Source: Terriglobia bacterium
Lineage (GTDB): Bacteria > Acidobacteriota > Terriglobia > Acidiferrales > UBA7541
Assembly (NCBI GenBank): GCA_020073585.1
Contig: JAIQEV010000007.1
Location: forward strand, 1 to 64,000
DNA: 64,000 nucleotides
Direction of reading: 5' to 3'
Shown piece after piece: positions 42,262 through 63,912 of this stretch. The notes beneath the pieces were generated by a model, which saw only the letters and a program-made list of their open reading frames with translations, ran no database searches and was not told the origin of the DNA. Position numbers and translations under genes: made by a program. Position 1 is the stretch's first letter; each line of letters begins with the position of its first letter.

Positions 42262-42966
42262 TTAGGGCTCCATGGGCGTGGCTTCGCGCCCGTTGAGAAT
42301 AATGTCAAATTTATAGCCCAGGGCCTTTTCCGGGAGAGTCGACTCCCAGTCGAAGAGCGAGATCAGGCGGTTGCGGGCTTTTTCATCCGCGGTGCAGTTG
42401 AAGATGGGATCGTAGGGAATCAGCGGATCGCCCGGGAAATACATCTGCGTGACCAGACGCGTGGCGAAGGCCGGTCCGAACAGCGAAAAATGGATGTGTG
42501 CAGGACGCCAGGCGTTGTGATGATTGCGCCAGGGATATTCGCCGGGGCGGATGCTCACGAAGCGGTAGCGGCCTTCGCCGTCCGTCAGCGTGTGGCCGCA
42601 GCCGGTAAAGTTGGGATCCAGCGGCGCGCGGTGCTGATCGCGCTTGTGCAGGTAGCGCCCCGCGGCGTTGGCTTGCCAGATTTCGACCAGAGTATGCGGC
42701 ACCGGGCGGCCGTTTTCGTCCAGCACCCTCCCGCTCACGATAATGCGCTCGCCCAGCGGTTCGCCGGAATGCTGGCGGGTCAGGTCGCAGGCCTTGACCT
42801 GCACCGTTTCTTTCCCGAAGACCGGGCCGGTCACCTCGGAAAGCGTGTGCGGGAGGTAGATCAGGGGTTTCCCGGGGGAGCGCTTGATGCTGGAGACGTA
42901 CGGGGGATGAAGGGGATTAGGCTGGGTCCCGATATAAGGCCGTCTATAGCCCGCGATCTTCGTCAT
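42262..42966 (-). CDS. pcaH: Protocatechuate 3,4-dioxygenase beta subunit
   Basis: Fe ligand motifs GRYLHKRDQH (Tyr), RPGEYPWRN (Tyr), RPAHIHF (His, His). Confidence 0.94.
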   Translation of the reverse strand: MTKIAGYRRPYIGTQPNPLHPPYVSSIKRSPGKPLIYLPHTLSEVTGPVFGKETVQVKACDLTRQHSGEPLGERIIVSGRVLDENGRPVPHTLVEIWQANAAGRYLHKRDQHRAPLDPNFTGCGHTLTDGEGRYRFVSIRPGEYPWRNHHNAWRPAHIHFSLFGPAFATRLVTQMYFPGDPLIPYDPIFNCTADEKARNRLISLFDWESTLPEKALGYKFDIILNGREATPMEP

Positions 42967-43072
42967 TGGTTCCTTTCTGCTCTCAACCACCACCCCGTAA
43001 CGCCGTGGGGCGCCGGAAACGCGCCGGATGGGAGGCCAAGGGGAATCTAGTAAGCAGCGGAGGGGAAGTCAA

Positions 43073-43156: not shown

Positions 43157-44026
43157 ATGGCTCGCGCCTCCTCGCGCAAACTTGCCGAAAAGAAGCCTCC
43201 CGACTCTTCTCTTGGGGAGATCCCCCCGGGCGTCGCGCTCTTGCCCGCGGCCCAGATCTCCGCCCTCAGCGGGGATCCCAACTTCATGACCTCGCTGGCC
43301 CGCGGGCTGGCGGTCATCCAAGCCTATTCCCATGCCAAAGCGTTGCTGACCATTTCCCAGCTCAGCACCGCCACCGGACTTTCCCGCGCGGCGGTGCGCC
43401 GCTGCATGTACACGCTGGGCAAGCTCGGATTGGCCGATTCCGAGGACGGCCGGCACTTCTCCCTTAAGCCCCGCATCCTCACGCTCGGACATTCCTACGT
43501 TGCTTCCATGCCGCTGGCCAAGATTGCGCAGCCCGTTCTGGATCGCGTCAGCCAGCTCCTGCGGGAGTCCTGTTCCATCGGCATGCTGGATGGGCGGGAC
43601 ATCATCCATGTGGCGAATGCGAATGTGACACGAATTCTGGCGATTGATCTCGCGATCGGCAGCCGCGTGCCGGCGCTGTACACTTCCATGGGCCGGGTCT
43701 TGCTGGCCTACCTTCCCCCCGGGGAACTCGAATCCTACCTGGCGCACGCCGAGTTCACTTCCTACACCGAGCGCAGCATCGCCAGCGCGGATAAGATGCG
43801 CGAGGCGCTCCAGCTCGTGCGCCGCAATGGCTATGCGCTGGTCGATCAGGAATTGGAATTGGGACTGCGCGCCATAGCCGTCCCGATCCACAATACAGAC
43901 GGAAAGGCGATTGCCGCTTTGAATGTCGGAGCCCACGCGCAGCGTGTTTCCGTGCAGGACATGTTATCCAAGTTCCTGTTGCAGCTGCAGGCTGCCGCGC
44001 AGGAACTCTCCATGCTCCTGAAATGA
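43157..44026 (+). CDS. IclR-family regulator, probable PcaR/PcaU/PobR-type
   Basis: FMTSLARGLAVIQAYSHAKALLTISQLSTATGLSRAAVRRCMYTLGKLGLADSEDGRHFSLKPRILTLGHSY; divergent from the pca operon. Confidence 0.88.
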   Translation: MARASSRKLAEKKPPDSSLGEIPPGVALLPAAQISALSGDPNFMTSLARGLAVIQAYSHAKALLTISQLSTATGLSRAAVRRCMYTLGKLGLADSEDGRHFSLKPRILTLGHSYVASMPLAKIAQPVLDRVSQLLRESCSIGMLDGRDIIHVANANVTRILAIDLAIGSRVPALYTSMGRVLLAYLPPGELESYLAHAEFTSYTERSIASADKMREALQLVRRNGYALVDQELELGLRAIAVPIHNTDGKAIAALNVGAHAQRVSVQDMLSKFLLQLQAAAQELSMLLK

Positions 44027-44561: not shown

Positions 44562-44582
44562 ACATTGCGCGCGAGGGATACG

Positions 44583-45695
44583 ATGAAAGACAAAAGACCC
44601 GTTGTTCTATACGGCGCCAGCGGATTTTCAGGCCGCCTGGTCGCGGAATTCCTGCGGGAGTACAACGTGCCGTTCGTTGCCGCGGGGCGCAACCGCGCCA
44701 AGATCCGCGACGTGATGGATCGCGTCCCCGGGATCGAGACCGCGGATTACGAAATTGCAGAAACCAGCGGCTCGCTTGACGATCTGATTAAGCTCTTCAG
44801 CGGCTCCAAGGTTGTCTGCAATACGGTCGGCCCGTTCCTCTATCACGGCCCGCGGGTGATCGAAGCCTGTCTCAAGGCCGGCTGTCACTACATGGACATC
44901 GGCGGCGAGCAGGCCTGGCATCGCGACGTCGAGGAAAACTGGAGCGAAAAGTTTGCGCGGCAGGGACTGCTGGCCGCGCCCGGCATGGCCTATATGTCGG
45001 CGGCCAGCGATATTGCCGCGCATCTGGTTCTCGAGACCCGCGGGATCGATACCCTGGACATTCTCTCCATGTTCAATGGCATTCCGACCTTCGGCTCCAC
45101 GCAGACGATTTTTGCGGCCATCCCCACGGATGCCTTCTACCTGGAGCAGAACCAGTACAAGCCGTGGCCGCGCGCCACGCCGCACGAGGTCGCCGTGCCC
45201 GGCCTGATCCAGACGCAACTGGCGCTGCCCTGGGGCGGCTTCCCGCACCCGGTGTGGTTCAAGCATCACCCGCAGGTGGCCAATGTGCGCACCCTCGGCG
45301 GTCTTCTCAACCGGCAGATCATGGAAACGGTCGCCGCCACGGAGAAACATTTCGAGGAGAACATCCGGCCGCTGCCCAAGCAGGAGCAAGAGCAGAAGCT
45401 GGCGGAGATGGCGAATTCCGTGCAAGGCGGCACTCCCCCGCGCGAGAACATGCGCGAGCACCGCACCATCGACGTGGTCTACGGACGGGGCACCACGGCC
45501 TGGGCTCAGTGCGTCATGTACGGGACCTGCTGCTACCGCCAGACCGGACTGGTGCAGGCCTACGCGGCGCACACCCTGGCGCACAACGCGCCGCGCAAGG
45601 TGGGTTATGCCTCGCCCTGCGCGGCCCTCGGACATCGCGAATTGCTAGGCGCGCTCGAGAGCTACGGCCTGCAGAAAGCGAAGCTGGATGCATGA
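44583..45695 (+). CDS. Saccharopine dehydrogenase / trans-acting enoyl reductase-like NAD(P)-binding protein
   Basis: RPVVLYGASGFSGRLVAEFLREYNVPFVAAGRNRAKI; VCNTVGPFLYHGPRVIEACLKAGCHYMDIGGE. Confidence 0.8.
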   Translation: MKDKRPVVLYGASGFSGRLVAEFLREYNVPFVAAGRNRAKIRDVMDRVPGIETADYEIAETSGSLDDLIKLFSGSKVVCNTVGPFLYHGPRVIEACLKAGCHYMDIGGEQAWHRDVEENWSEKFARQGLLAAPGMAYMSAASDIAAHLVLETRGIDTLDILSMFNGIPTFGSTQTIFAAIPTDAFYLEQNQYKPWPRATPHEVAVPGLIQTQLALPWGGFPHPVWFKHHPQVANVRTLGGLLNRQIMETVAATEKHFEENIRPLPKQEQEQKLAEMANSVQGGTPPRENMREHRTIDVVYGRGTTAWAQCVMYGTCCYRQTGLVQAYAAHTLAHNAPRKVGYASPCAALGHRELLGALESYGLQKAKLDA

Positions 45696-48303: not shown

Positions 48304-50439
48304 TCATTTGGTTTCCGCTAGGCTCTGATTCGCCCGGAAAATCACGTAGGCGCGGATGGTTTCGGCATCTTCGCGGGATAGCTCCTTGGCGAAGGAGACC
48401 ATGCCCGCCTGCTTGAGCATCCCCCCGAGCACGATGCCGTACCACATCTCATCGTCCAGCATGCCGGAGTAGCGCAGGTCGGGCAGCACGCCTCCGCTCA
48501 CCGCGACATCCCCATGGCAGTTCGAGCAGTAGCTCTGGAATAGTTGCTCTCCCTTGTGGATGGTGGCGGGCGTGGCGGTGGAGGCCGGCGGATGCAGCAC
48601 GGGCTGCTCCATGTGCGCCGGCGGCAGGCTGGCCTTGCCGCCCAGTTTGAAGACCAGCATGCGGCCGAGGTTCGGCATCTTGCCGGACTTCAACGCGACC
48701 TCCCCGGCGATCAGCGGCAGCGCGCCTCCCCAGCCCGCCAGCACCGCCACATACTGTTCCCCTTTGACCGTGTAGGTCATGGGTCCGGCCATCACGCCCG
48801 TCTGGGCGGGCGCCGACCACAGCTTCTCGCCCGTGTCCGCGCGGTAGGCTTCGAAGTTTCCGCCCGCCGTGCCTTGGAATACGAGATTCCCGGCCGTTGT
48901 CAGGATGCCCCCGTTCCAGGCGGCAGGCCGCTCGACTTCCCAGACCTGTTTCTGGCGGACCGGGTCCCAGGCCACGAGGTGCCCCTTGACGCTCGCCAGG
49001 ATCGCCTTCTTGATGTTCGGATCCTGCGGCAGCCCGGCAGCCACGGCATCGGTAGCGGTATTGAATCCCAGGCTCTTCGGTTCAAAGTGCTCCACCGCTT
49101 TGTACTTGAAGCCGGTGTCCTGCTCCGGGATGTACACCAGACCGGTGAGCGGGCTGTAGGACATGGGCTGCCAATTGTGTGCGCCGCCCGGTCCGGGGAT
49201 GATCGGCGCGGGGTCGCTGCCCGGGTATCGTGCAATGGGCGTTTCGATGGGGCGGCCCGTTTTCATGTCCACGCCGGTGGCCCAGTTGATGTTGGTATAG
49301 GGCGTCGCGGAGATCAGTTCGCCGCTCTTGCGGTCCAGCACATAAAAAAAGCCGTTCTTCGGCGCGTGCAGGAGAACCTTGCGCACCTGCCCGCCGATGG
49401 GGATATCCGCCACGATGATCTGTTGCGAGGAGGTGTAATCCCAACTGTCGCCGGGGGACTCTTGGTAATGCCAGACGTACTCCCCGGTGTCCGGCTTGAG
49501 CGCCACGATTGAAGCCAGAAACAGATTGTCGCCGCCTTGCGGGCTGCGCACTCTCCGATCCCACGGGCTGCCATTGCCGACCCCGATGTACAGCAGATCC
49601 AGGTCGGGGTCGTAGACGATGGAATCCCAGACGGTGCCTCCGCCGCCGTACTTCCACCACTCGCCGCTCCAGGTCTTCGCCGCTTTTTCCAGGATGGAGC
49701 TTTCGAACGGCTTGGAAGGATCGCCCGGCACGGTGTAGAAGCGCCACACCAGCTTGCCGGTCTCCGCGTCGTAGGCGGAAACGTAGCCGCGCACGCCCAT
49801 CTCCGCGCCGCCGTTGCCGATCAGCACCTTGCCTTTGACCACCCGCGGCGCGCCGGTGATGGTGTAGCGGAACTTGCGGTCGATCGTGAGCGTCTCCCAC
49901 ACCGGCTTGCCCGTGGCGGCGTCCAGCGCCACCAGCCGGCCGTCCAGCGTGCCCACGAAGACCTTGCCGTCCCAGATGGCCACGCCGCGATTCACCACGT
50001 CGCAGCAGGCGTTGATGGCCCACTCCGGGGGCACCTTCGGATCGTAAGCCCACAGCCGCTTGCCGCTCGCGGCCTCCAGCGCCACCACCTTGCTCCAGGC
50101 AGTCGTGAAGTACATCACGCCGTCGACTACCAGTGGCGTGGCCTCCTGCCCGCGTCGCGTATCCAGATCGTAGTACCACGCCAGCCCCAGCCCGCCGATG
50201 TTCCGGTCGTTGATCTGCTTCAGCGGGCTGAAGCGCTGCTCGCTGTAGGTCCGCCCATGGCTCATCCAGTTTCCCGGCTCCTGGTCGGCGTTGCGGATGC
50301 GCGCACCGTTCACGCCGGCGCGCTGCGCGGTTGCCCCGGGCTTGGCGCCGTCCGCGTGGTGCAGCCCGGGCGCGGCATAGCCGGCGCCTACCGCCAAAGC
50401 GAGCGCAATCGCGACCATGGAAAGTTTTCTCTGAGACAT
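48304..50439 (-). CDS. PQQ-dependent alcohol dehydrogenase with C-terminal cytochrome c domain (quinohaemoprotein)
   Basis: W-motif propeller repeats; vicinal CC ([13 protein letters not shown]); [10 protein letters not shown]-terminal [21 protein letters not shown]. Confidence 0.9.
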
Positions 50440-50556
50440 GTGTTCTCCTGACCGCCAGGGTTGCGTGAAGTGTTCCTGGAGACGTGTGCGCGGCCCTCCA
50501 GAACAGCCGGTTCGCGGCGTGGACCGCTTCGCGGTCACGCATACAAGCGACGAGTT

Positions 50557-50585
50557 TCCATATCGCCTTGTGTGCGCAATGTCAA
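50557..50585 (-). promoter_or_regulatory. Candidate promoter for the PQQ dehydrogenase (TTGACA-N17-TATGGA)
   Basis: Complement of 50580-50585 is TTGACA; complement of 50557-50562 is TATGGA. Confidence 0.4.
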
Positions 50586-50784
50586 GCGCTGCTGCTTTGC
50601 CTTGAAAAGCAGCGGCGGCAATTTTCGGGGTTGCGCACAGAAACGAGCCACAAAATTCCGGGATCTGTCCCTCGCGCCAGCGCGGGCCAGTCGAATTGGG
50701 CGCTGGCATCCAGATCCCGGAAAGCCTTCCGTCGGTCATTCCGGGGAAAGACGGGCGCTGGAGGGACAAACCAAAAATCCGGCG

Positions 50785-50808
50785 ATATTCGCACAACCGC
50801 CCGAATAT
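50785..50808. promoter_or_regulatory. Inverted repeat ATATTCG-N10-CGAATAT upstream of the -35 (TTGACA 50813) of the TonB receptor promoter
   Basis: 7-bp perfect arms directly upstream of TTGACA-N16/17-(G)ATATGA. Confidence 0.5.
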
Positions 50809-50926
50809 TGGCTTGACAAGGAACTCCTGCAGAAGATATGACCAACATCACATTTTAGTGAAACTTCAGGTGCAATGCGTCTTTAAGACTGGGGAGCGCG
50901 ATTGCGCGCTAATAAGGAGTCATAAA

Positions 50927-53900
50927 ATGAGGGTACGTGGGAGCTTGCTGGTCTTTCTGGCGGTCCTGATTTTGTTTGCGGGTTTGCCTGTGGCCTCCGC
51001 GCAAGTCAGCGGTAGCGGAGCCCAGTTGAACGGCATCGTGCGCGACGAAAGCGGCGGCTCTGTGGCCAAGGCGGCCATCACCCTGCGCGAAGTAGATACC
51101 AATCGCACTTATACCTCGGTCTCCATCGACAATGGCACGTACGTGATTCCTAATATCGCGCCGGGCCGCTACGAGCTGACAGTGGACGCCGCGGGCTTCT
51201 CCAAGTCCACGCATACCGGCATCGTCCTCAGCGTCGGCCAGGTGGCCACGATTGACATCGACCTGAAAGTCGCTACCGTCGGCCAGAAAGTCGAAGTGAC
51301 CACGGAGACCCCGGCCGTCGAGCCCAGCCGCACCGAAGTCAGCCAGGTCATCGACTCCAAGCAGATCGGCTCGCTGCCCATCAGCGGCCGCCTGTTCACC
51401 GACTTTGCCCTCTTGACCCCCGGCGTGACCACCGGGCGCACCAGCCTGCAGTCCACCATCACCGAAGCGGAAGTCACGCGCATCTCCTTTGGCGGCATGC
51501 GCGACTTGAGCAACATGGTCACTGTGGATGGCGCGGACACTGTTAACTCCGCCACCGGCTCCCAGCGCGCCACGCCTTCGCAGGAAGCGGTCAGTGAATT
51601 CCGCGTGGTCAATAACGGCTTCAGCGCGGAGCAGGGCCGCGCCATGGGCGGCATCGTCAACATCATCACCAAGTCCGGCACCAACGACCTGCACGGCTCG
51701 CTCTACGACTACCTGGAAAATGACGCCATGAACGCGCGCGCCATGTTGCAGCCCGCTCCTCTGCCGAACACCCTGCGGCAGAACCAGTTTGGCGGCACCC
51801 TCGGCGGGCCCATCAAGAAGGACAAGACCTTCTTCTTCATGAACTATGAAGGCCAGCGCCGCGCGGAAGCTCCGGTTCAGTCTCCGGTATTGATGGCCAA
51901 CTTGGCGTTGATCAACGCGGCCAAGGCGGAACTGTTCGGCGGTGCGCCGGGCCAATTCAACGAGAACACCGGCGCCTTGAAGACACAGGATACCGATAAG
52001 GGGTTCGTCAAGCTCGACCACGAAATCAGCAAGAACAATCGCATGGCGCTGCGCTACAACATCGAGGATGGCCGCAGCCTCAACGTGTTGATGGGCGATA
52101 CCCTGGACGGCGGCGGCATTGGCGCGCCCAGCAGCGCCCACAACAACTTCTTGCGCGATCAGTCCCTGGTCGGCATCGTCTCTTCGCAGCTCACGCCCTC
52201 TCTGATAAATACCGCCCTCGCTCAGTACGCGCGGCGCCACTCCACCTTCCCCGGCGTCACCGGCCAGCCCAATCTGGACATACCGAACTCGCTCCTCATG
52301 GGCCACAACTTCGGCGTTTTCGATGCCACCTATGAGAGCCGCGCGCAGTTTGCGGACTCCGTCTCCTGGGTCAAGGGCTCGCACCTGGCCAAGTTCGGCG
52401 TGGACTACAACCACGTCAACGATCACATCATCTGGCCCGGCTTTTCGCCCATGCGCATTGTTCTGCCTAGCATCAACTGTCTGGTGATCTTCGCCAACTA
52501 CGTCTCCGGGGGCAGCTTGGCACAGTCGCCAAACCCCGGCGATACCTGTCCGCTCCCCCCGGTCATGAATGGCGTGCCGGTCGTCTTCTGGCCCTCTCCG
52601 CTCGGAACGGGAGACACCTCGGTCGTGGATGGCACTGCTGCGACTGCTCCGCCATTTCCGCTGCCTCTGAATTGGGGCAACGCCTATCTGCCCAATGAAA
52701 CTCCGAATTACTTCTCGGACATGACCCACGGCTATTTGGGGACTTTCGCGCAGGATCAGTGGCGCGTCACTCCCAAGTTCACTCTGAATTACGGAATGCG
52801 CTGGGATTTCGAGCCGGGCATCAGCGATGTAGTGAACCACTACTACAAGGCCTTTCAGCCCAGGGTCGGCCTCGCTTATTCTCCGGACAAGCACACCGTC
52901 ATTCGCGCCGGTTTCGGTCTCTTCTTCGACCGTTACAACAAGTCATTCTTCTTTGTCACCCGGCCGCAGCGCCCCACAACCTTCGTCTGTGCGGTGAGCA
53001 CTCCGAACTGTACCGGAGCCACCTATGCGCTGCCGGGCATTCGTCAGGGAGGTCCCAACGCTACGTACGCCCTGAACCAGATGGCTTTTGTTCCAGGTGT
53101 GGGCTGGGATCCCGCAGCTACGGCCAAGCAGTTGCTCACGACCGGTACTTATCTGCCCGTTCAGTTGGTCACCGACATCACGAGGTTACCGATCCCCGAG
53201 TTCTCCACCGTGGGTGACGGAACCGTCGAAACCAACAGCAAGATGCCTTACTCCGAGCAGGGCAGTCTGGAAATTGACCGCGAGCTCGGCCATGGGTTGG
53301 TGGTCAACGTCGGCTATCTCTTCGTCTCCGCGCACCACCAGGTCCGCGCCGAGAATCTAAACGTCTGCCCGGTTAACACCACCGGCGGGGTCAGCCCCAG
53401 TATGACCACCGGATGGTATCAGTGCGGATCGAATGCATTTGGGAATTACTCCGCAGCGCCTCCGGATTTCCCCAGCGGTAAGAGCTATTTCCAGAGCGTT
53501 CTTATGCCGGTCGGCCTGCTCTATTACACCGACAACAGTGGCAATAGCGTTTACCACGGCGTGACGTTCTCCGTGACCGAGAAGGCGGGGCAGTATTTCC
53601 GCCTCAACGCCAACTACACCTTCTCCAAGACCCTGGATGACGGCACGTTTACCACGTTCGTCAGCACCCCTGAGGATTACTACAGGAGATATCTCGAGCG
53701 CGCCAACTCCAACCAGGACGTGCGGCACCGCTTTGTGGCCAACTTCACCGCCACCGGTCCGCAAAAGACCTTCCTGCGCAATACCGAGCTGAGCGGCATC
53801 GTTACCCTTCAGGGCGCGCGTCCTTTCACCATGTTTGTGGGGCATGACGCCAATAACGACACCAACCCGGTCACCGATCGCGTCGGTCTCACCGCTCGCA

Positions 53901-54244
53901 ACGCCTACTGGGGCGACAAGTTCCGGACCGTGGATCTCCGCCTCTCGCAGCATTTCAAGTTCCGCGAGAAGCAGAGGATTGACGTGGCCTTGGATGCCTT
54001 CGACGTGTTCAACCGGCCCAACGTGAACGAGGTCACTTCCGTTTACGGCACGTACGACTTCTGCGGCGGAAAGGTGCCGGTCAGTTATAAGGACGCCACC
54101 TCGCTGCAGATTCAGACGAACCCCGGGTCGTTCTTTGGCTCATGCCCATTGGTCGGGCCTCCGGTCCCAAATCCGAGTTTCGGCTCGGCGCGGACCATGT
54201 TCAACCCCCGGCAGCTCCAGATCTCGCTCAAGTACTCCTTCTAG
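50927..54244 (+). CDS. TonB-dependent receptor with N-terminal carboxypeptidase-regulatory domain (Oar-like)
   Basis: 1105 aa; signal peptide, AQLNGIVRDESGGSVAKAAITLREVDTNRTYTS, plug VDGADTVNSATGSQRATPSQEAVSEFRVVNNGFSAEQGRAMGGIVNIITKSGTN, C-terminal LQISLKYSF. Confidence 0.92.
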   Translation: MRVRGSLLVFLAVLILFAGLPVASAQVSGSGAQLNGIVRDESGGSVAKAAITLREVDTNRTYTSVSIDNGTYVIPNIAPGRYELTVDAAGFSKSTHTGIVLSVGQVATIDIDLKVATVGQKVEVTTETPAVEPSRTEVSQVIDSKQIGSLPISGRLFTDFALLTPGVTTGRTSLQSTITEAEVTRISFGGMRDLSNMVTVDGADTVNSATGSQRATPSQEAVSEFRVVNNGFSAEQGRAMGGIVNIITKSGTNDLHGSLYDYLENDAMNARAMLQPAPLPNTLRQNQFGGTLGGPIKKDKTFFFMNYEGQRRAEAPVQSPVLMANLALINAAKAELFGGAPGQFNENTGALKTQDTDKGFVKLDHEISKNNRMALRYNIEDGRSLNVLMGDTLDGGGIGAPSSAHNNFLRDQSLVGIVSSQLTPSLINTALAQYARRHSTFPGVTGQPNLDIPNSLLMGHNFGVFDATYESRAQFADSVSWVKGSHLAKFGVDYNHVNDHIIWPGFSPMRIVLPSINCLVIFANYVSGGSLAQSPNPGDTCPLPPVMNGVPVVFWPSPLGTGDTSVVDGTAATAPPFPLPLNWGNAYLPNETPNYFSDMTHGYLGTFAQDQWRVTPKFTLNYGMRWDFEPGISDVVNHYYKAFQPRVGLAYSPDKHTVIRAGFGLFFDRYNKSFFFVTRPQRPTTFVCAVSTPNCTGATYALPGIRQGGPNATYALNQMAFVPGVGWDPAATAKQLLTTGTYLPVQLVTDITRLPIPEFSTVGDGTVETNSKMPYSEQGSLEIDRELGHGLVVNVGYLFVSAHHQVRAENLNVCPVNTTGGVSPSMTTGWYQCGSNAFGNYSAAPPDFPSGKSYFQSVLMPVGLLYYTDNSGNSVYHGVTFSVTEKAGQYFRLNANYTFSKTLDDGTFTTFVSTPEDYYRRYLERANSNQDVRHRFVANFTATGPQKTFLRNTELSGIVTLQGARPFTMFVGHDANNDTNPVTDRVGLTARNAYWGDKFRTVDLRLSQHFKFREKQRIDVALDAFDVFNRPNVNEVTSVYGTYDFCGGKVPVSYKDATSLQIQTNPGSFFGSCPLVGPPVPNPSFGSARTMFNPRQLQISLKYSF

Positions 54245-54447: not shown

Positions 54448-55173
54448 ATGGCGGTTTTCGTCTTAGTGCACGGGGCCTGGCATGACGGATCGGCTTGGGA
54501 CGCGGTCGTTCGGCAGTTGGAAAGCAAGGGCCACAAGGCCTTCGCTCCTACCGCGGCGGGTCACGGCCATGGCGTTCCCAAGAATGTCACCCACGCCGAT
54601 TGCACGCGCTCGCTGGTGGAGTTCATCACCGCAAATTCGCTCTCCGAAATCATCCTCGTGGGCCACAGCTTTGGCGGCACGCTCATTTCCAAGGTGGCCG
54701 AAGCCATTCCCGGGCGCATCCGCCGTCTCGTCTTTCAGAATGCCTTTGTCCTTCGCGATGGCGTGAGCCTTTTGGATGAAGTGCCCCCGGAAACGGCTGC
54801 GGGATTCGCGCAGTTGGCCGGGCATTCCCCGGACAACACGGTCATGCTGCCGTTCCCGGTCTGGCGCGACACCTTCATCAATGACGCCGATCTGGAAACC
54901 GCGAAGCTCGCTTACGAAAAACTTTCTCCCGGTCCTTTTCAGCCTTTCGCCGACAAGCTCGACCTGAAGAAGTTCTACTCCCTGCAGATTCCCAGGAGTT
55001 TCATCAATTGCACGGAGGACATCGCACTTCCTCCCGGTGAATACGGCTGGCATCCGCGGATGTCCGCCCGCCTGGGCCTGTACCGCCTGGTGCAAATGGC
55101 CGGAAGCCACGAAGTGCTGTTCACGAATCCGCGGGGCCTGGCGGAGAAAATTCTGGAGGCTGGAAGGGATTAG
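54448..55173 (+). CDS. Alpha/beta hydrolase (salicylate esterase/MES-like fold)
   Basis: MAVFVLVHGAWHDGSAWDAVVRQLESKGHKAFAPTAAGHG; ILVGHSFGGTLISKVAEAIPGRIRRLVFQNAFV. Confidence 0.88.
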   Translation: MAVFVLVHGAWHDGSAWDAVVRQLESKGHKAFAPTAAGHGHGVPKNVTHADCTRSLVEFITANSLSEIILVGHSFGGTLISKVAEAIPGRIRRLVFQNAFVLRDGVSLLDEVPPETAAGFAQLAGHSPDNTVMLPFPVWRDTFINDADLETAKLAYEKLSPGPFQPFADKLDLKKFYSLQIPRSFINCTEDIALPPGEYGWHPRMSARLGLYRLVQMAGSHEVLFTNPRGLAEKILEAGRD

Positions 55174-55225: not shown

Positions 55226-56557
55226 ATGAGAACAGACGAATATTTCGATCTGGAAATCGAAACCATGACCCCTGCAACGTTGAGGTTGCTGCAGGAGATC
55301 AAGCTCGCCAAGCAACTCGACTATCTGTATGCCCGGTCGCCCTTCTACCGCGATAAATTCGCCGCTGCTTGGATTCGCCGCGAAGATTTTCGAACCCTCG
55401 GGGATCTGGCGCGCTTTCCTTTTACCACCAAGGAGGAGTTGCGCGAAAGCCAGGCCGCCTGCCCGCCCCTGGGGAGCCACATGGCCGCGGACATGGCGGA
55501 TGTCATCCGCCTGCACGCCTCCACGGGTACCACGGGACGCCCCAGCTTCGTCGGCGTCACCCGCCGGGATGCCCAGGTCTGGACGCACGTCACCGCCCGC
55601 TCGTTTTACGCCCAGGGCATCCGGCCTTCCGACATCGTCATTCACGCTGCGGGCCTGACCATGTTCGCCGGCGGCTTGCCCTCCAAGGACGCCATGGAGA
55701 TGATCGGCGCGGCCTTCGTTCCCGTGGGCACCGGCGCCTCCGAAAAAGTCGTGCTATTCGCGAAAGCCCTGCGCGCCAATGCCATTCATTGCACGCCCTC
55801 CTACGCCATCTACCTCGCCGATTACGTGCGCCGCGAGGCCAAGATGGATCCGCGGGAGCTGGCCATTGCCAAGCTGGTCTGCGGCGCGGAACCCGGCGCC
55901 GGCATCCCTTCGGTCCGCGCCAAGATGACCGAGGAATGGGGCGCGCGCGTGACCGAAGGCCTGGGGAACGCCGATATGGCCCCCATCATCTTCGCCGAAT
56001 GCCGCGAGCAATCCGGCATGCACTACAACGGGTACGAGTACGTGTACATCGAGATCATCGACCCCGAGAGCGGGGAAGTGCTGCCCATCGAAACCGGGGT
56101 TTCCGGGGAGCTTGTCTACACCAGCCTGGATCGCGAATGCGTTCCCCTGCTGAGGTTCCGCACCCGGGACCGCGTTTCCATTCTGGCGACCTCCTGCAAG
56201 TGCGGACGAACCGGATTTAAGATGCGCTGCATCGGCCGCACCGACGATATGCTCATCGTTCTGGGCGTCAATATCTTCCCCTCGGCGGTGCGTGATGTCG
56301 TCTCCAGCTTCTACCCGCAGACCACCGGAGAAGTGCAGATCCTTCTGGATGAGCCTGGGCCGGGCGTGAAGCCGCCGTTAGAGGTGGCGGCGGAATACGG
56401 CAGCGGCACGCAGGACCTGCCGGCGCTGCGGAAGAAAATCGAGGAAAAGATCAAGGCCGTGCTCTCCGTTTCCGCGGCCGTGCAGCTTGTGCCCCCGGGG
56501 ACGCTGCCCCGTTTTGAGATGAAAGGCCAGTTGATCAAGAAGCTCTACGAGAAGTAA
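55226..56557 (+). CDS. Phenylacetate-CoA ligase family (PaaK-like) AMP-forming ligase
   Basis: ARSPFYRDKF; FPFTTKEELRES; RLHASTGTTGRPSFVGVT; RTRDRVSIL; GRTDDMLIVLGVNIFPSAVRDVV. Confidence 0.9.
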   Translation: MRTDEYFDLEIETMTPATLRLLQEIKLAKQLDYLYARSPFYRDKFAAAWIRREDFRTLGDLARFPFTTKEELRESQAACPPLGSHMAADMADVIRLHASTGTTGRPSFVGVTRRDAQVWTHVTARSFYAQGIRPSDIVIHAAGLTMFAGGLPSKDAMEMIGAAFVPVGTGASEKVVLFAKALRANAIHCTPSYAIYLADYVRREAKMDPRELAIAKLVCGAEPGAGIPSVRAKMTEEWGARVTEGLGNADMAPIIFAECREQSGMHYNGYEYVYIEIIDPESGEVLPIETGVSGELVYTSLDRECVPLLRFRTRDRVSILATSCKCGRTGFKMRCIGRTDDMLIVLGVNIFPSAVRDVVSSFYPQTTGEVQILLDEPGPGVKPPLEVAAEYGSGTQDLPALRKKIEEKIKAVLSVSAAVQLVPPGTLPRFEMKGQLIKKLYEK

Positions 56558-56577: not shown

Positions 56578-57258
56578 ATGGCAATGCTGATAGCCAAGCC
56601 GCAGCCGCTCAAGATCGATCTCCGGAAGGCGGCCGTCGTCGTCGTGGACATGCAGAATGCCTTCGCCGCCAAGGGCGGCATGCTGGATATCGCCGGCGTG
56701 GATATTTCCGGTGCCGCCCAAGTGGTGCGCACGATTCGCGGTATGCTGGATGCCGCGCGCCGCGCGGGCCTTCCCGTGGTGCACCTGCAAATGGGGTACA
56801 AGCCCGATCTCAGCAACAGCGGCGGGCCGGCTTCCCCCAATTGGCACAAGGAACTGGCCATGCATCTCATGACCTGCAGGCCGGAGCTGAAAGGCAAGCT
56901 GCTGACCGAAGGAACCTGGGACTTTGCCATTGTGGAAGAACTCCAGCCGCAGCCGGAAGATCTCGTGGTGGTGAAGACGCGTTACAGCGGGTTCCAGGGC
57001 ACGACCCTGGATTCCCAGTTGCGCATGCGCGGCATCCAGTATCTGTTCATCACCGGCATCGCCACCAACGTCTGCGTGGAATCCACCCTGCGCCATGCCT
57101 ATTTCCTGGACTACTGGCCGATCCTGATCGCCGACGGCGCCATGCAGGCGGGGCCGCCGGCCCTTCAGGACGCCACGGTTTTCAACGTCGAGAATTTTTT
57201 CGGTTGGACGATGCAGTCGCAAAACTTTCTGGCGGCAGTCAAATCATTGAACTCCTGA
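56578..57258 (+). CDS. Isochorismatase-family cysteine hydrolase, RutB-like
   Basis: VVVVDMQNAFAAKGG (Asp), VVVKTRYSGFQGTTLDSQLRMRGIQYLFITGIATNVCVESTLRHAYFLDYWPILI (Lys, Cys). Confidence 0.88.
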   Translation: MAMLIAKPQPLKIDLRKAAVVVVDMQNAFAAKGGMLDIAGVDISGAAQVVRTIRGMLDAARRAGLPVVHLQMGYKPDLSNSGGPASPNWHKELAMHLMTCRPELKGKLLTEGTWDFAIVEELQPQPEDLVVVKTRYSGFQGTTLDSQLRMRGIQYLFITGIATNVCVESTLRHAYFLDYWPILIADGAMQAGPPALQDATVFNVENFFGWTMQSQNFLAAVKSLNS

Positions 57259-57265
57259 GGGCCCT

Positions 57266-59263
57266 GTGCTGACCGTAGACATTGATATCGGCGGAACGTT
57301 AACCGACGGGATTTTCAGCGACGGCCGGAAGGTCGTCTGCGCCAAGGTGGACACCACCCCCCACGACCTGACTATCTGCCTGTTCGACTGCCTGACGCAG
57401 GGCGCCACGCAACTGGGCTACTCCGACGTGGATCTGTTTCTGGAAAACGTCGAGCTCATTCGCTGGTCCACGACCATCACTTCCAACGTCCTCGCGGAAT
57501 TGCGCGGCCCGCGCATCGGCCTGCTTATCTCGCGGGGCCACGAAAAGGACCTGTACGGCAAGGAGCCGCGCAGCATCGTCCTCGGCCGCATTCTTTCCGA
57601 GCGCGATGTCACCGGGATCAATGGGGACAGCAGCGAGACGGAGATCATGAACGCCGTGCGCACCCTGCTCGAGAGCGGCGCGCGCCGCATTTGCGTCAGC
57701 CTCCGGGACGCCCATCTCCATCCCGAACAGGAAATCCGCATCAAGCGCATCGTCGACCAGCAGTACCCGGACCATTTCCTCGGCTCCGTCCCGGTTCTTG
57801 CCGGCAGCGATATCTCCAAGAGTTCCGACGCCATGACCCGCACCTACTGCGCCCTGATCAATGCCTATACGCACGGCGCGCTGGCGGCTACGCTCTTCAA
57901 GGCCGAGGACGATCTGCGCGAGGTCCATCGCTATCCCGGCACGTTCCTCGTCAGCCACATCAACGGCGGCGTCTCCGGCATCGCCAAGACCAAGGCCATT
58001 GATACCATCGAATCAGGCCCCATCCTGGGCATCCACGGCAGCGCACACCTGGCCAGAGTCTACAAAGTGAACGAGGTGGTGGCCCTGGACGTCGGCGGCA
58101 CCACGGCTAAAGTCAGCGTCCTGCGCAATACCGCTCCTCTGCTGCGCAAGCCCTCGGATTTCTTCGGCATCCCCGTCGAGATCTCCTTGCCCTACCTGCG
58201 CTCGATTGCCCTGGGCGGCGGGAGCGTGGTGAAAGCCGGCGCAAAAGGACAGCCGCCGGAAATTTCCCTGGGGCCCGAAAGCATGGGCTCCTATCCGGGC
58301 CCCGCGTGCTATGGCTTGGGCGGTGAACAGCCCACGCTCACGGATGCCTTCGTCGCCGCCGGGCTCATCAACCCGGACTACTTCCTCGGCGGCAGCAAGC
58401 CCATCAGCCTGGAGACCGCGCGCCAGACCATTCAGCAGCGCGTCGCCGAGCCCTTGCGGAAATCGGTCGAGGAGGCTTCCCGCGCCATCATCGAACGCGC
58501 CTTCGCGCTTGTCGCCGGCACCATCGCGCACACCAGCGCCGAGCTGCAACAGGATCTTTCCCGGCACACCCTGTTTGCTTACGGCGGAAACGGCGGCCTG
58601 ATCGCCTGCGGCGTCGCCGAGCAGGCCGGGCTGAAGGAAGTTTTTTTCTTCAACCTGGGGCCCGTCTTCAGCGCCTTTGGCTCTTCGGTCTCGGACATCT
58701 CCCACGTCTACGAGCGATCCCTGCATCTGACCTCGCTCGGCGACGCCGAACTGCAACGTCTCAGTGATGCCCTCCTGGACAGCAAAGCCGAGGGCACGCG
58801 CGATCTTCTGGGAGAAGGCATCAAGCCCGACGGTATCGAGTACGCGATCGAGCTGGAAGTTTCGCGCAACGGTCAGCCCTCGGCTGCCGTACCCTGCCCG
58901 GCGGACGCTTTCCGGAGCGCGCAGCAACTGAAAGCGTTTTTGGAGAAAACGCTCGGCGGCGGCAGGGAAGCGTTTGTCGTCGATCTCCTCCGCGTGCAGA
59001 TCAAGAAGGCCATGCCCAAGCCGTCGCTCGCCGCAAAGCCGCTGCAGGGTGCCGATTCCTCGCACGCCAGCAAGGGCCGGCGGCAAGTCGCCTGGGGCAG
59101 CACCACGGGAGAAGCGCAGCTCTACCGCTGGGAAGATCTGCAGCCCGGCAATCGCGTCGAGGGATGCGCCGTGCTGGAAGGCGCGAACAGCACCTATTTC
59201 GTTCCCGAAGGCTGGACGCTGCTCATGGATCACTACGGAAACGCAAAGCTGACGCGGTGCTAG
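57266..59263 (+). CDS. Hydantoinase/oxoprolinase family HyuA-type subunit 1 (ApcA-like); GTG start
   Basis: LTVDIDIGGTLTDGIFSDGR; VALDVGGTTAKVSVL; GSYPGPACYGLGGEQPTLTDAFVAAGLINPDYFLGG. Confidence 0.88.
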   Translation: MLTVDIDIGGTLTDGIFSDGRKVVCAKVDTTPHDLTICLFDCLTQGATQLGYSDVDLFLENVELIRWSTTITSNVLAELRGPRIGLLISRGHEKDLYGKEPRSIVLGRILSERDVTGINGDSSETEIMNAVRTLLESGARRICVSLRDAHLHPEQEIRIKRIVDQQYPDHFLGSVPVLAGSDISKSSDAMTRTYCALINAYTHGALAATLFKAEDDLREVHRYPGTFLVSHINGGVSGIAKTKAIDTIESGPILGIHGSAHLARVYKVNEVVALDVGGTTAKVSVLRNTAPLLRKPSDFFGIPVEISLPYLRSIALGGGSVVKAGAKGQPPEISLGPESMGSYPGPACYGLGGEQPTLTDAFVAAGLINPDYFLGGSKPISLETARQTIQQRVAEPLRKSVEEASRAIIERAFALVAGTIAHTSAELQQDLSRHTLFAYGGNGGLIACGVAEQAGLKEVFFFNLGPVFSAFGSSVSDISHVYERSLHLTSLGDAELQRLSDALLDSKAEGTRDLLGEGIKPDGIEYAIELEVSRNGQPSAAVPCPADAFRSAQQLKAFLEKTLGGGREAFVVDLLRVQIKKAMPKPSLAAKPLQGADSSHASKGRRQVAWGSTTGEAQLYRWEDLQPGNRVEGCAVLEGANSTYFVPEGWTLLMDHYGNAKLTRC

Positions 59264-59312
59264 AACGACATTCCGCACCGCGGGAATGCGCAGATCGGGC
59301 AAGGGGAGAGCA

Positions 59313-59699
59313 ATGGCATCCGAACAACCAAGCCGCATCCGGGTCACCGAGTACCTCGACCTGGATATTGACCGGGAAAAGTGGCTGTGTAACCGCTGCA
59401 ATTTCGAGATTGGTCCGGCCCGCGAATCCTACAAGAAGGGCTGCCTGCTCCACGACCGAGATCCCCGCGAGGTTCATCCGCCACTGGTTTCCGGCGATTT
59501 CAGTTTTTCCCCGGACCCCCTGTGGGTCCGCATTGTCGAGTTTTACTGCCCCGGCTGCGGCGCGCAGGTGGAGACGGAATACCTGCCCCCGGGACATCCC
59601 CTCACCTGGGACATCGAAATCGATCTGGACAGCTTGAAGGAAAGATTGCGCGCCGGCGAATTCAAGATTCGTAAGCAGCGACTCGAGGTCTCCGAATGA
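59313..59699 (+). CDS. Small zinc-ribbon subunit (acetophenone/acetone carboxylase small-subunit-like, ApcB-like)
   Basis: 128 aa; WLCNRCNFEIGPARESYKKGCLLHDRDPREVHPP...EFYCPGCGAQVETEYLPPG; lies between the two HyuA genes. Confidence 0.65.
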   Translation: MASEQPSRIRVTEYLDLDIDREKWLCNRCNFEIGPARESYKKGCLLHDRDPREVHPPLVSGDFSFSPDPLWVRIVEFYCPGCGAQVETEYLPPGHPLTWDIEIDLDSLKERLRAGEFKIRKQRLEVSE

Positions 59700-61825
59700 A
59701 CTCCATTGATATCGACGTGGGCGGCACCTTCACGGACCTGGTCCTCAACTACGAGGGCAAGAGCCTCATCAAAAAGGTTCCCACGACCCCCTACGACCTC
59801 TCCGTCTGCTTTTCGAAGGTCATCGAAGAGGGCGCGGCCTCCCTGGGCCTCAAAATCGAGGAGTTGCTTCCCGGGATCGACATGATCCGCTACTCGACGA
59901 CGATCGCGTTGAATCGCCTGATCGAGAAAAAAGGTCCCCGCCTCGGCCTGATTACCACCGAAGGCCACGAAGACGTGGTCCTCATCGGACGCGGCGCGCA
60001 GTGGATCGACGGAACCCGCGTGGCCGAACGCAGAAACCTGGCCATTCAGAAAAAACCGGACCCGCTCATCCCCCGCGACCGCATCGTCGGCGTGAAGGAG
60101 CGCATCGACTCCCGCGGCAATATCATCCGCCCTCTCGACGAGGATGACGTGCGCGCCAAGGTGCGTTCCCTGGTAAGCAAGGGCGTGCGCGGTTTCGTGG
60201 TCTCCCTTCTCTGGGGCTTTTTGAACCCCATCCATGAGAAGCGCATCAAGGAGATCATCCGCGACGAGTACAAGGAATTTCACATCGGCTATCTTCCCGT
60301 CGTGCTCGGCGGCCAGGTGGTCGGTAAGCTCGGCGAGTACGAGCGCACGCTCGCCGCGATCCTGGACGCCTACCTGCAGCGCTCCATGCAGATCGAGCTC
60401 TCCGCGATGTGGGACAAGCTGCGCGACCGCGGCTATAAGAAGCCCCTGCTCATGATCCAGAGCTCCGGGGGCATCGCCGAGGTCTTCCGCACCGCCGCCA
60501 GCCGCACCTTCAACAGCGGCCCCGTCTCCGGCCTCATGGGCGCGCATCACGTGGCCAAGTCTCTCGGCTACAAGAACGTCGTCATGACCGACATGGGCGG
60601 CACCAGCTTCGACGTCGGTCTCGTCGTCAAGGACAGCGTCCGCAGCTACGACTTCCGCCCCATCATCGATCGCTGGATGGTCGGCATCACCATGATCAAG
60701 ACCCTCTCCATCGGCGCCGGCGGCGGCTCCATCGCCTGGCTCAACAAGCTGCTGCAGAACCAGCTCCAGGTGGGCCCCAAGAGCGCCGGCTCCATGCCCG
60801 GGCCGGCCTGCTTCAATCTCGGCGGCACCGAGCCGACGGTCACCGATGCCGATGTCGTGCTCGGCTATCTCAATCCCGACTTCTATTACGGCGGCAAGCT
60901 GCGCCTCGTCAAGGAGCGCTCCATCCAGGCCATCCGCGACAAAATCGCCAAGCCTCTCGGCATCGATGTCGAACAGGGCGCCCAGATCATCCGCAAGATC
61001 GTCAACGGCAACATGGCCTCGGCGATCATGAAGGAAGTCCACCTGCGCGGCTACAGCCCCGAGGAATTCATTCTTTTCGTCGGTGGCGGCGCGGGCGCCA
61101 CGCATGTGGAAGGGTATATGGCCGATGTGCCCAAGGCCGTCACCTTTTCCTTCTCTCCGGTCTTCTGCGCGTTCGGCTCGTCCACCATGGACATCATGCA
61201 CGTCTACGAGGCTTCGAAGAAGATTACCCTGATGGAGCCGCGCACGCAGAAACTCGCCGAAGAGTTCACGGGCTTTAACCGCGCGGTCGAGATGCTGATC
61301 GAGCAGGCCAAGCGGGATCTCGTGGCCGACGGCCTCAATCCCGGAGATGCCGGCTTCGTCCTCGAGCTGGACATGCTCTACGGCGGACAGTTCCACGTGA
61401 AACGCACGCTCTGTCCCCGGCTGTCCCTGCACGGCGCCGAGGACGTCCGCGCGATCTGCGACGCTTTCGAAAAGGAGTTCAGCGAAGCGTTCAGCCCGTT
61501 CGTCGTCAACCCCGAGGGCGGTGTCTTCATCGAGAGCTTCATCCTCAAGGCCATCGTTCCGACCAAGAAAGTGGAATTGCCCGTCATGCGCCTGGAAGGC
61601 CACGATCCCAGCGCCGCCCGCAAAGGCGAGCGCCCGGTCTATTGGACCGAGGCCAAGGGCTTTAAGACCACGCCGATCTATGCCTATGAATCGGTGCGTT
61701 CCGGTAATCTGATCGAAGGCCCCGCGGTGGTCGAAGGCGAATACACGACGCTCGTGGTCCCGCCTTCGATGCAGTTTTCCGTGGATGCACGGGGCCTCGG
61801 AATTCTGGAAAACCGGAAAGCCTAG
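59696..61825 (+). CDS. Hydantoinase/oxoprolinase family HyuA-type subunit 2 (ApcC-like)
   Basis: NSIDIDVGGTFTDLVLNYEGK; VVMTDMGGTSFDVGLVV; GSMPGPACFNLGGTEPTVTDADVVLGYLNPDFYYGG; ATGA overlap with the small subunit. Confidence 0.9.
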   Translation: MNSIDIDVGGTFTDLVLNYEGKSLIKKVPTTPYDLSVCFSKVIEEGAASLGLKIEELLPGIDMIRYSTTIALNRLIEKKGPRLGLITTEGHEDVVLIGRGAQWIDGTRVAERRNLAIQKKPDPLIPRDRIVGVKERIDSRGNIIRPLDEDDVRAKVRSLVSKGVRGFVVSLLWGFLNPIHEKRIKEIIRDEYKEFHIGYLPVVLGGQVVGKLGEYERTLAAILDAYLQRSMQIELSAMWDKLRDRGYKKPLLMIQSSGGIAEVFRTAASRTFNSGPVSGLMGAHHVAKSLGYKNVVMTDMGGTSFDVGLVVKDSVRSYDFRPIIDRWMVGITMIKTLSIGAGGGSIAWLNKLLQNQLQVGPKSAGSMPGPACFNLGGTEPTVTDADVVLGYLNPDFYYGGKLRLVKERSIQAIRDKIAKPLGIDVEQGAQIIRKIVNGNMASAIMKEVHLRGYSPEEFILFVGGGAGATHVEGYMADVPKAVTFSFSPVFCAFGSSTMDIMHVYEASKKITLMEPRTQKLAEEFTGFNRAVEMLIEQAKRDLVADGLNPGDAGFVLELDMLYGGQFHVKRTLCPRLSLHGAEDVRAICDAFEKEFSEAFSPFVVNPEGGVFIESFILKAIVPTKKVELPVMRLEGHDPSAARKGERPVYWTEAKGFKTTPIYAYESVRSGNLIEGPAVVEGEYTTLVVPPSMQFSVDARGLGILENRKA

Positions 61826-61851
61826 ACGGCTCGGAGCGAGCAAGGAGAACC

Positions 61852-63912
61852 ATGCCCATACCTACGTTAGCGGAAAAACTTCAGTGGCTGAAGCCCGCCC
61901 CGGCCACGCCGCACGAGATCGAATGCGCCGCGAAGCTCCGCCAGGGCGACTACGAAATCGGCGTGCAGATCACCAACGACATTCTGGACGAAGCCATGGA
62001 GATCTTCGTCCGCTCCTCGCGCAGCTATTTCGGCGTCTCCGGCGACTCCATGGTGGCCATCTTCACGGCCGGCGGCGATCTGATCAACGCTTCCTGCGGC
62101 ACCTATCTGCACGCCATCATTCAGCCCATCGTCATCAAGTTCATCCTCAAGTATTACTCGGAAAATCCGGGCATTCACGATGGCGACATCTGGTACACCA
62201 ATGACGCCCTCTATGGCGGCATTCACAACCCCGACCAGGTGGCCTTGATGCCCGTCTTTCACGACGGCAAGCTTCTGGCCTGGGCTTCCGCCGCACTGCA
62301 CACCACCGAAACCGGCGCCATCGAGCCTGGCGGCATGCCGGTCAGCGCCAAGTCCCGCTTCGAGGAAGGCCTGAACCTTCCGCCCATCAAGATCGGAGAA
62401 AATTTCAAGCTGCGCAATGATTTCCTCGAATTTTACGCCGTCTACGGCCTCCGCGCCCCGGCCATGTTCATCTCCGACCTCCGCGCCCGTTGCACCACCA
62501 CCGATCGCGTCCGCGCCCGCTTGCTCGAACTGGTCGAAAAGCGCGGGCCGGACTACCTGGTGGGTTTGATCCGCAAGATGCAGGACACCGCCGAAGCCGG
62601 CGCACGCCAGAAGGTCAAATCTCTTCCGGACGGCAAGTTCCGCGCCGTGGTCTTCAATGACGCCATCGGCTGGACGCCCGCCCTCGTGCGCTCGTGTTTC
62701 CTCACCCTCACCAAGAAGGGTGAAAAGATCACTTTCGATTTTGCGGGTACTTCACCGGAAAATCCCTCCTCCTACAACGTGCACACGCAGGCCGTGGTCG
62801 GGCACATCGCAAATTTCATGTATGAGTACATCTTCCACGACCTCCCGATTTGCAGCTCCACCTTTGCCCCCATCGACTTCGAATTTCCGGAGGGCATCAT
62901 TCTCAACCCCGGCAAGCTGGCTGCTACCAGCTGTTGCGTCTTCATCGGCATGCAGGCGCGCAACGCCACGCACAACGCTTTCGCCAAGATGGTCTTTTCC
63001 AGCGAAAAGTTCTGGCACCAGGTGGCCGCCGCTCCCGGCAGCCAGCATACCTCGCAGATCTGCGCCGGTCTTTCGCAGTGGAACTTGGCCGTCTCCGACG
63101 TTCTTTCTTTCTCCTTGAATACCCAGGGCCAAGGCGGGCGCTCCGGAACCGACGGGATGGATTCCTACGGCTTCGCCTGGTGCGCGTTCGGCCGCGCGCC
63201 CGATTCCGAACAGGTCGAAAGCGAACTGCCCTTGTCGGTCATGCTCTCCCAGCACTGGCGGGATTCCTGCGGCCATGGCGTACATCGCGGCGGCTCCGGC
63301 GCCGTGCAGCAGTGGATGATCCACAAGATGCCGAACATGGTTTCCATGTGCATGGGGAACGGGAGCAAAGTGCCGATCGGCCAGCCTCTGTTCGGCGGAT
63401 ACGCTTCGTCGCCCATTCCGGGTATCAGCATCCGCAAAGCCGACCTGCTGAAACAGATGAAGGAAGGCAATCCCGATCTCGTGATGGATCACCGCACGAT
63501 CATCGAGAAAGGCACGATTCACGGCGATTGGAAATTTGAGCTCGTCGCCCGCACCCCCAAGGTCTATGAAGAGGGCGACTTGCTCTTCGGCTTCAGCGGC
63601 GGCGGCCCGGGCTATGGCGACCCCCTGGAACGTGATCCCGAATCCGTGATGGACGATCTGAAGAAAAAGATCATCTCGGACTGGACCGCGCAGAATATCT
63701 ACAAGATCGCCTATGATCCCGAGCGGCGAAAAGTGGACATCGAGAAGACCAGGCAGCAGCGCCAGGAGGAAAGAAAGGCCCGGCTGGCCCGCGGTAAATC
63801 CTACGACGACTTCCAGCAGGAGTGGGCCAAAAAGAGTCCGCCCAAGGAGGCGTTGCTTTATTACGGCACCTGGCCCGATGCCAAGCCCACGGGACCCGTC
63901 TTCCGGCCTTGA
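61852..63912 (+). CDS. Hydantoinase B/oxoprolinase family subunit (HyuB/ApcD-like)
   Basis: SRSYFGVSGDSMVAIFTAGGDLI; DGDIWYTNDALYGGIHNPDQVALMPVFHDGKLLAWASAALH; FDFAGTSPENPSSYN; GFSGGGPGYGDPLERDPESV. Confidence 0.9.
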   Translation: MPIPTLAEKLQWLKPAPATPHEIECAAKLRQGDYEIGVQITNDILDEAMEIFVRSSRSYFGVSGDSMVAIFTAGGDLINASCGTYLHAIIQPIVIKFILKYYSENPGIHDGDIWYTNDALYGGIHNPDQVALMPVFHDGKLLAWASAALHTTETGAIEPGGMPVSAKSRFEEGLNLPPIKIGENFKLRNDFLEFYAVYGLRAPAMFISDLRARCTTTDRVRARLLELVEKRGPDYLVGLIRKMQDTAEAGARQKVKSLPDGKFRAVVFNDAIGWTPALVRSCFLTLTKKGEKITFDFAGTSPENPSSYNVHTQAVVGHIANFMYEYIFHDLPICSSTFAPIDFEFPEGIILNPGKLAATSCCVFIGMQARNATHNAFAKMVFSSEKFWHQVAAAPGSQHTSQICAGLSQWNLAVSDVLSFSLNTQGQGGRSGTDGMDSYGFAWCAFGRAPDSEQVESELPLSVMLSQHWRDSCGHGVHRGGSGAVQQWMIHKMPNMVSMCMGNGSKVPIGQPLFGGYASSPIPGISIRKADLLKQMKEGNPDLVMDHRTIIEKGTIHGDWKFELVARTPKVYEEGDLLFGFSGGGPGYGDPLERDPESVMDDLKKKIISDWTAQNIYKIAYDPERRKVDIEKTRQQRQEERKARLARGKSYDDFQQEWAKKSPPKEALLYYGTWPDAKPTGPVFRP

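Follow-up and report, generated by a model that had tools for sequence, protein, structure and literature searches.

We find that an operon close to the end of the Terriglobia bacterium sequence analysed here (the window, which is bases 1 to 64000 of the 94.5-kb contig C4 in the 4.03-Mb genome G000) probably encodes a five-subunit, adenosine triphosphate (ATP)-dependent and biotin-independent aryl methyl ketone carboxylase of the acetophenone carboxylase (Apc) type, which would act most likely on 4-hydroxyacetophenone and feed a 4-hydroxybenzoate/protocatechuate route. Genes downstream of the window were read from the same contig (Table 1). Genes were assigned by profile matches to Pfam and NCBIfam and by matches to PDB, and scores were compared with the family cut-offs.

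The core of the system lies at positions 57266 to 63912, where the initial annotation had described a HyuA, zinc-ribbon, HyuA and HyuB series, and both the open reading frames and the Pfam matches (in gene order Hydantoinase_A, Acetone_carb_G, Hydantoinase_A and Hydantoinase_B) agree with that description. The best NCBIfam families of the four products are ApcA, ApcB, ApcC and ApcD, respectively, the top PDB match of each is 5L9W, the Apc core of Aromatoleum aromaticum, and the genes stand in the published apcABCD(E) order (PMC5214803). Together with a concordant tree, this lends strong support to the earlier proposal of an Apc-like layout rather than a two-gene hydantoinase or caprolactamase. 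The start/stop overlap that had been noted is real for apcB and apcC, which share an ATGA at 59696-59699, but the remaining core genes are separated by 49 bp (apcA-apcB) and 26 bp (apcC-apcD). The apcB product would be 137 amino acids long if the ATG at 59286 were taken as its start.

The initial annotation stopped at four genes and thereby overlooked apcE, which starts 3 bp past the apcD stop codon and runs beyond the window. Because this next reading frame matches the ApcE family and the ApcE structure 9FOU, the complex has five subunits and is an apcABCDE set like that of A. aromaticum; its epsilon subunit is divergent and is recognised by remote homology and, through an ortholog, by fold. 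The predicted structure of an acidobacterial ApcE ortholog (locus L010; predicted local distance difference test score of 86.7) had 9FOU as its top Foldseek match (E value of 8.8e-15, template modelling scores of 0.65/0.73, 20% identity), with URO-D-type proteins ranking next, and apcE is kept in the acidobacterial relatives having enough downstream sequence. Epsilon has been described as the most variable Apc subunit (PMC5214803), and the divergence seen here agrees with that remark. A second, distant Apc-like cluster is present in a genome of the same genus (L132, on contig C2 of G005), and there an apcE-like gene precedes the alpha' gene.

Phylogeny places both ATPase subunits with Apc. In a FastTree tree of 167 alpha-type sequences, made up of related loci, the other HyuA homologs of the genome and reference chains (aligned part only), the window ApcC groups with A. 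aromaticum ApcC (31 members) and the window ApcA with A. aromaticum ApcA (32 members), each clade having a support of 100 and the counts including the window sequences. The alpha and alpha' clades are separate from each other, and acetone carboxylase (Acx), caprolactamase (CapA) and N-methylhydantoinase fall outside; a comparison against these enzymes had been suggested in the initial annotation and was made here for both alpha-type subunits. The 22 acidobacterial ApcC sequences form a single clade within the 31-member clade, again with a support of 100. The alpha', gamma and epsilon subunits are additional to a two-subunit hydantoinase or caprolactamase and the sequences lie outside that branch, and neither the three-gene layout nor the branch is that of the acxABC acetone carboxylases. 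Judged by sequence, the complex is very likely an Apc-type ketone carboxylase. Genome G000 carries four further HyuA-family genes and one fragment (contigs C113, C86, C111, C46 and C31), and the four that were tested fall outside the Apc clades.

The residues expected of an Apc are largely in place. The alignment recovered the published Apc-alpha numbering exactly, with L81, F281, N282, P285, I333, Q344 and T345 all matching. The phosphate and adenosine motifs are retained in both ASKHA subunits, ApcA conserves the equivalents of E248, D274 and K281, ApcC carries KERIDSRG, which fits the R/KERiDsxG fingerprint of Apc alpha, and ApcD conserves the metal-type site of Apc beta (D65/H123/D126/H148). 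The CNRC and CPGC motifs earlier picked out in the small subunit were both found, and Cys26/29/79/82 of ApcB align with the published four-cysteine zinc site of the gamma subunit (Cys22/25/75/78). In the acidobacterial ApcC proteins six of seven pocket residues agree with A. aromaticum (81 being Leu or Met), and only position 344 is changed: it is Lys in 22/22 acidobacterial sequences (Lys335 in the window) and in none of 50 wider relatives, whereas the other nine members of the Apc clade have Gln (eight) or Glu (one). A second alignment, of 11 sequences, likewise showed no variation at Lys335. Our hypothesis is that this pocket lysine recognises the 4-hydroxyl group of the substrate.

From the computed homology, clade membership, motifs and synteny we infer the reaction, the substrate and the order of steps, with subunit roles as published for A. 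aromaticum Apc. ApcC would phosphorylate the enol form of the ketone and ApcA would turn bicarbonate into carboxyphosphate, with ApcD and ApcB as the scaffold and ApcE as a loosely bound fifth subunit required for turnover. The aroylacetate product would be converted to its coenzyme A (CoA) thioester by the PaaK-like ligase, the thiolase would cleave this to acetyl-CoA and aroyl-CoA, the 4HBT-type thioesterase would free the aromatic acid, and the pobA product would 3-hydroxylate 4-hydroxybenzoate to protocatechuate. The genes from apcE through thiolase and thioesterase to pobA run in the same direction downstream of apcD, spaced 3 to 62 bp apart, and about 13 to 18 kb 5' of apcA are the pca genes together with a PcaR/PobR regulator gene. 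The window pcaGH genes are the sole intradiol dioxygenase genes above the Pfam cut-off in the genome, and pcaD may be represented by an alpha/beta-hydrolase-like stretch that lies between pcaB and pcaC. Since pobA follows and pcaGH, pcaB and pcaC are on the same contig, the released acid is most likely 4-hydroxybenzoate, and the predicted substrate is therefore 4-hydroxyacetophenone. In the initial annotation the substrate was held to be unreadable from sequence. This was too pessimistic, as a 4-hydroxyaryl methyl ketone is indicated by the operon and by related loci, and we regard such a substrate as probable. Acetovanillone is a possible substrate in some relatives.

Among the 399 genomes of the class that were surveyed for relatives (genomes are labelled G and loci L), an apcB relative was found in 20, with a patchy distribution. 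A CoA ligase, either PaaK-like or an adenosine monophosphate (AMP)-binding enzyme of about 650 amino acids, is present in most loci with enough flanking sequence, with neither family seen at the apc loci of G122 and G241, and thiolase and thioesterase genes recur. pobA directly follows in G000, G005 and G342 and is about 20 kb from apcB in G102 and G126. One locus (L127) has apcABCDE, the AMP ligase, thiolase, thioesterase and pobA together, in another (L126) pcaC, pcaB and a PcaR-type regulator gene are beside apcA, and the linkage of pobA or pca genes to apc recurs in other genera.

Several observations weigh against a 4-hydroxyacetophenone carboxylase. All five subunits score under their NCBIfam equivalog cut-offs (Table 1), and the complex should for that reason not simply be named acetophenone carboxylase. 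The lysine change is a single ancestral event, which makes its link to the 4-hydroxyl group only a hypothesis, and it is one of 30 positions that set the acidobacterial clade apart. Genome-wide, pobA was found in 14/19 genomes with apc and 6/20 without, an association confounded by kinship and therefore uninformative, because all apc-negative genomes compared belong to the window's own genus, within which the figures are 2/4 and 6/20; G251 and G275, both Apc-positive but from a different family, lack the gene. The isochorismatase-like partner fits nowhere in the predicted pathway. Finally, plain acetophenone could be used, since boxB (benzoyl-CoA epoxidase) gives benzoyl-CoA an outlet; the gene is in two pieces (C99:8390-9475 and C28:30911-31246), probably split by an assembly break, and the idea that unsubstituted acetophenone lacks an outlet was dropped on account of its presence.

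The strongest competing explanation, although an unlikely one, is a carboxylase of plain acetophenone like that of Aromatoleum, with benzoyl-CoA entering the aerobic box pathway and pobA a mere neighbour. It is in line with the shared clade, the nearly identical pocket and the boxB gene, but boxB is on other contigs, the operon includes pobA and a thioesterase that would waste benzoyl-CoA, pobA or pca linkage is repeated in other genera, and Gln344 is replaced by Lys across the whole acidobacterial clade. A carboxylase for acetovanillone or a related methoxylated 4-hydroxyacetophenone, with vanillate demethylated to protocatechuate, is improbable in the window, as no VanA_C gene was found in its genome and the operon holds pobA and not a demethylase. 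Genes of some relatives are in its favour: vanA (vanillate O-demethylase oxygenase) is near apc in L020, and MetE-C-like (PF01717) genes near apc in four loci (L014:1210-3820, L010:16147-17217, L015 and L123), with a methylenetetrahydrofolate reductase gene also in L014, possibly serve tetrahydrofolate-linked O-demethylation. It is very improbable that the true substrate is an unknown ketone or a 4-hydroxyphenyl alkyl ketone of another kind (e.g., 4-hydroxypropiophenone). Ligase and thiolase do belong to broad families, with no match to a specific equivalog, and the Apc branch had one characterised member by 2017 (PMC5214803), but no positive evidence supports this reading, and 4-hydroxyacetophenone is the simplest compound fitting the operon. 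N-Methylhydantoinase works with N-carbamoylsarcosine amidohydrolase, and the conserved isochorismatase-family gene that precedes apcA by 7 bp could likewise be read as the partner of an ATP-dependent cyclic-amide hydrolase. That reading is very improbable, since hydantoinases have two subunits only (PMC5214803) while alpha', gamma and epsilon are present here, the tree excludes the hydantoinase branch, and a hydrolase of this kind would not account for thiolase, thioesterase and pobA.

The predicted 4-hydroxyacetophenone carboxylase resembles the ApcABCDE of A. aromaticum EbN1 (5L9W, 9FOU; PMC5214803) in gene order, the five subunit types, ATP motifs, zinc cysteines, alpha/alpha' clades and ApcE fold. 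It differs in scoring under all equivalog cut-offs, in the Gln344-to-Lys change, in a very divergent ApcE and in the PaaK-like ligase, and its operon adds a thiolase, a 4HBT-type thioesterase and pobA. A. aromaticum reportedly uses its apc-bal genes aerobically as well as anaerobically and breaks down 4-hydroxyacetophenone via a completely different pathway (PMC4729919). The acetone carboxylase AcxABC (5M45, 5SVB) shares HyuA- and HyuB-family subunits and a small zinc subunit, but it has three subunits, another gene order and a separate branch, and the small-subunit match is about 25 bits. Caprolactamase CapAB and N-methylhydantoinase (6YRA, 7HK5) share the HyuA and HyuB folds but are without alpha', gamma and epsilon, hydrolyse without fixing CO2 and lie outside the Apc clade. 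The predicted substrates and the sequence of carboxylation, CoA activation and formation of 4-hydroxybenzoate or vanillate are shared with the Hpe and Acv pathways of Rhodococcus GD02 and Sphingobium SYK-6, which proceed through phosphorylation and a biotin carboxylase (PMC9618137; PMC13101465). In Hpe, a separate kinase and a biotin-dependent carboxylase act on the phosphorylated phenol, and neither is next to the acidobacterial cluster; the scanned genes of the cluster include no biotin-dependent carboxylase, the genome not having been searched for HpeCBA homologs. No aryl kinase of the phosphoenolpyruvate-synthase type adjoins the carboxylase, the single PPDK_N gene of the genome being a 909-amino-acid frame on contig C87, and a Baeyer-Villiger route was rejected, as the genome has no gene for a flavin-containing monooxygenase-type Baeyer-Villiger enzyme.

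The enzyme type is known, but a 4-hydroxyacetophenone substrate and an aerobic protocatechuate route would, if true, be new for it; the GD02 authors described Hpe as the only aerobic aromatic pathway with carboxylation known to them (PMC9618137), and among the matches of a search of open-licence PMC papers none was relevant to Apc in Acidobacteria. It would provide a second Apc of different selectivity with a full pathway, in which one could test what ApcA and ApcE do and how the substrate is chosen (e.g., by Lys335Gln), and a further ATP-driven C-C bond-forming enzyme for lignin-derived ketones, 4-hydroxyacetophenone being a lignin and spruce compound. Piceol, which is 4-hydroxyacetophenone, and its glucoside picein are both known from spruce. 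We give even chances to the more extended proposal that an Apc complex, with neither biotin nor a separate kinase, directly carboxylates 4-hydroxyacetophenone and feeds an aerobic protocatechuate pathway in soil acidobacteria, with the pocket lysine reading the 4-hydroxyl group and with use of picein-type glucosides in relatives having sugar-oxidising genes. Genes for a GMC oxidoreductase, Gluconate_2-dh3 and a xylose-isomerase-like TIM barrel protein are near apc in L019 (540-5805), L020, L115 and L117, and it is speculation on our part that they act together as a sugar-oxidising set in the deglycosylation of aryl glucosides (e.g., picein).

Table 1. Features of the apc region and its surroundings on contig C4 (aa, amino acids; PQQ, pyrroloquinoline quinone)
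Feature	Position	Strand	Evidence
apcA-like, alpha' subunit, second ASKHA ATPase, 665 aa	57266-59263	+	NF042960 650 bits, E 2.7e-195 (cut-off 1250); best PDB 5l9w_b, E 2e-160
apcB-like, gamma subunit, zinc ribbon, 128 aa	59313-59699	+	PF08882 Acetone_carb_G; NF042974 188 bits (cut-off 250); 5l9w_C, E 4.6e-49
apcC-like, alpha subunit, ASKHA ATPase, 709 aa	59696-61825	+	NF042975 1084 bits (cut-off 1500); 5l9w_B, E 8e-297
Codon for ApcC Lys335 (pocket residue Gln344 of A. aromaticum Apc-alpha)	60698-60700	+	Alignment
apcD-like, beta subunit, HyuB family, 686 aa	61852-63912	+	NF042976 907 bits (cut-off 1500); 5l9w_A, E 5e-259
apcE-like, epsilon subunit, URO-D/MtaA fold, 343 aa	63916-64947 (window end 64000)	+	NF042977 75.8 bits, E 3.5e-21 (cut-off 450); PDB 9fou, E 1.9e-13
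Beta-ketothiolase	64996-66240	+	TIGR01930 over cut-off
4HBT-type thioesterase, 148 aa	66250-66696	+	Own protein: YbgC-type families under cut-off; L014 and L018 orthologs match Pfam 4HBT families
pobA, 4-hydroxybenzoate hydroxylase	66759-67931	+	TIGR02360 542 (cut-off 538.7)
Isochorismatase-family hydrolase (RutB/biuret hydrolase-like)	56578-57258	+	PF00857; TIGR03614 288 bits, under cut-off
PaaK-like AMP-forming CoA ligase	55226-56557	+	PF14535; NF041878 and TIGR02155 about 290 bits, under cut-offs
Alpha/beta hydrolase, first gene of tight run	54448-55173	+	PF12697; kept in three relatives
TonB/Oar-like outer-membrane receptor	50696-54244	+	Weak TonB-receptor matches; many relatives have it 5' of apc
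PQQ-dependent alcohol dehydrogenase with cytochrome domain, divergent	48304-50796 (frame); 48307-50451 (scanned protein)	-	TIGR03075 679 bits (cut-off 480)
IclR-type regulator, PcaR/PcaU/PobR family	43157-44026	+	TIGR02431 293 bits, over cut-off
pcaH, protocatechuate 3,4-dioxygenase beta	42262-42993	-	TIGR02422 355 bits, over cut-off
pcaG, protocatechuate 3,4-dioxygenase alpha	41691-42254	-	TIGR02423 214 bits, over cut-off
pcaB, 3-carboxy-cis,cis-muconate cycloisomerase	40304-41671	-	NF006554 677 bits and TIGR02426 439 bits, over cut-off
pcaC, 4-carboxymuconolactone decarboxylase	39117-39503	-	TIGR02425 195 bits, over cut-off

Of the remaining neighbours, the isochorismatase-like gene adjoins apcA in many acidobacterial relatives and is found 3' of apcE in the Dehalococcoidia/Chloroflexi loci L074 and L079 (48% identity). 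The start of the PaaK-like ligase was picked by length match to relatives. The TonB/Oar-like receptor is a possible uptake component, and the PQQ alcohol dehydrogenase, which could oxidise a 1-arylethanol to the ketone, is also near apc in G102, G126, G022, L019 and L020 in differing arrangements. A DUF5938/saccharopine dehydrogenase-like protein is encoded at 44580-45692 of the window and near apc in L021, G251 and G134.

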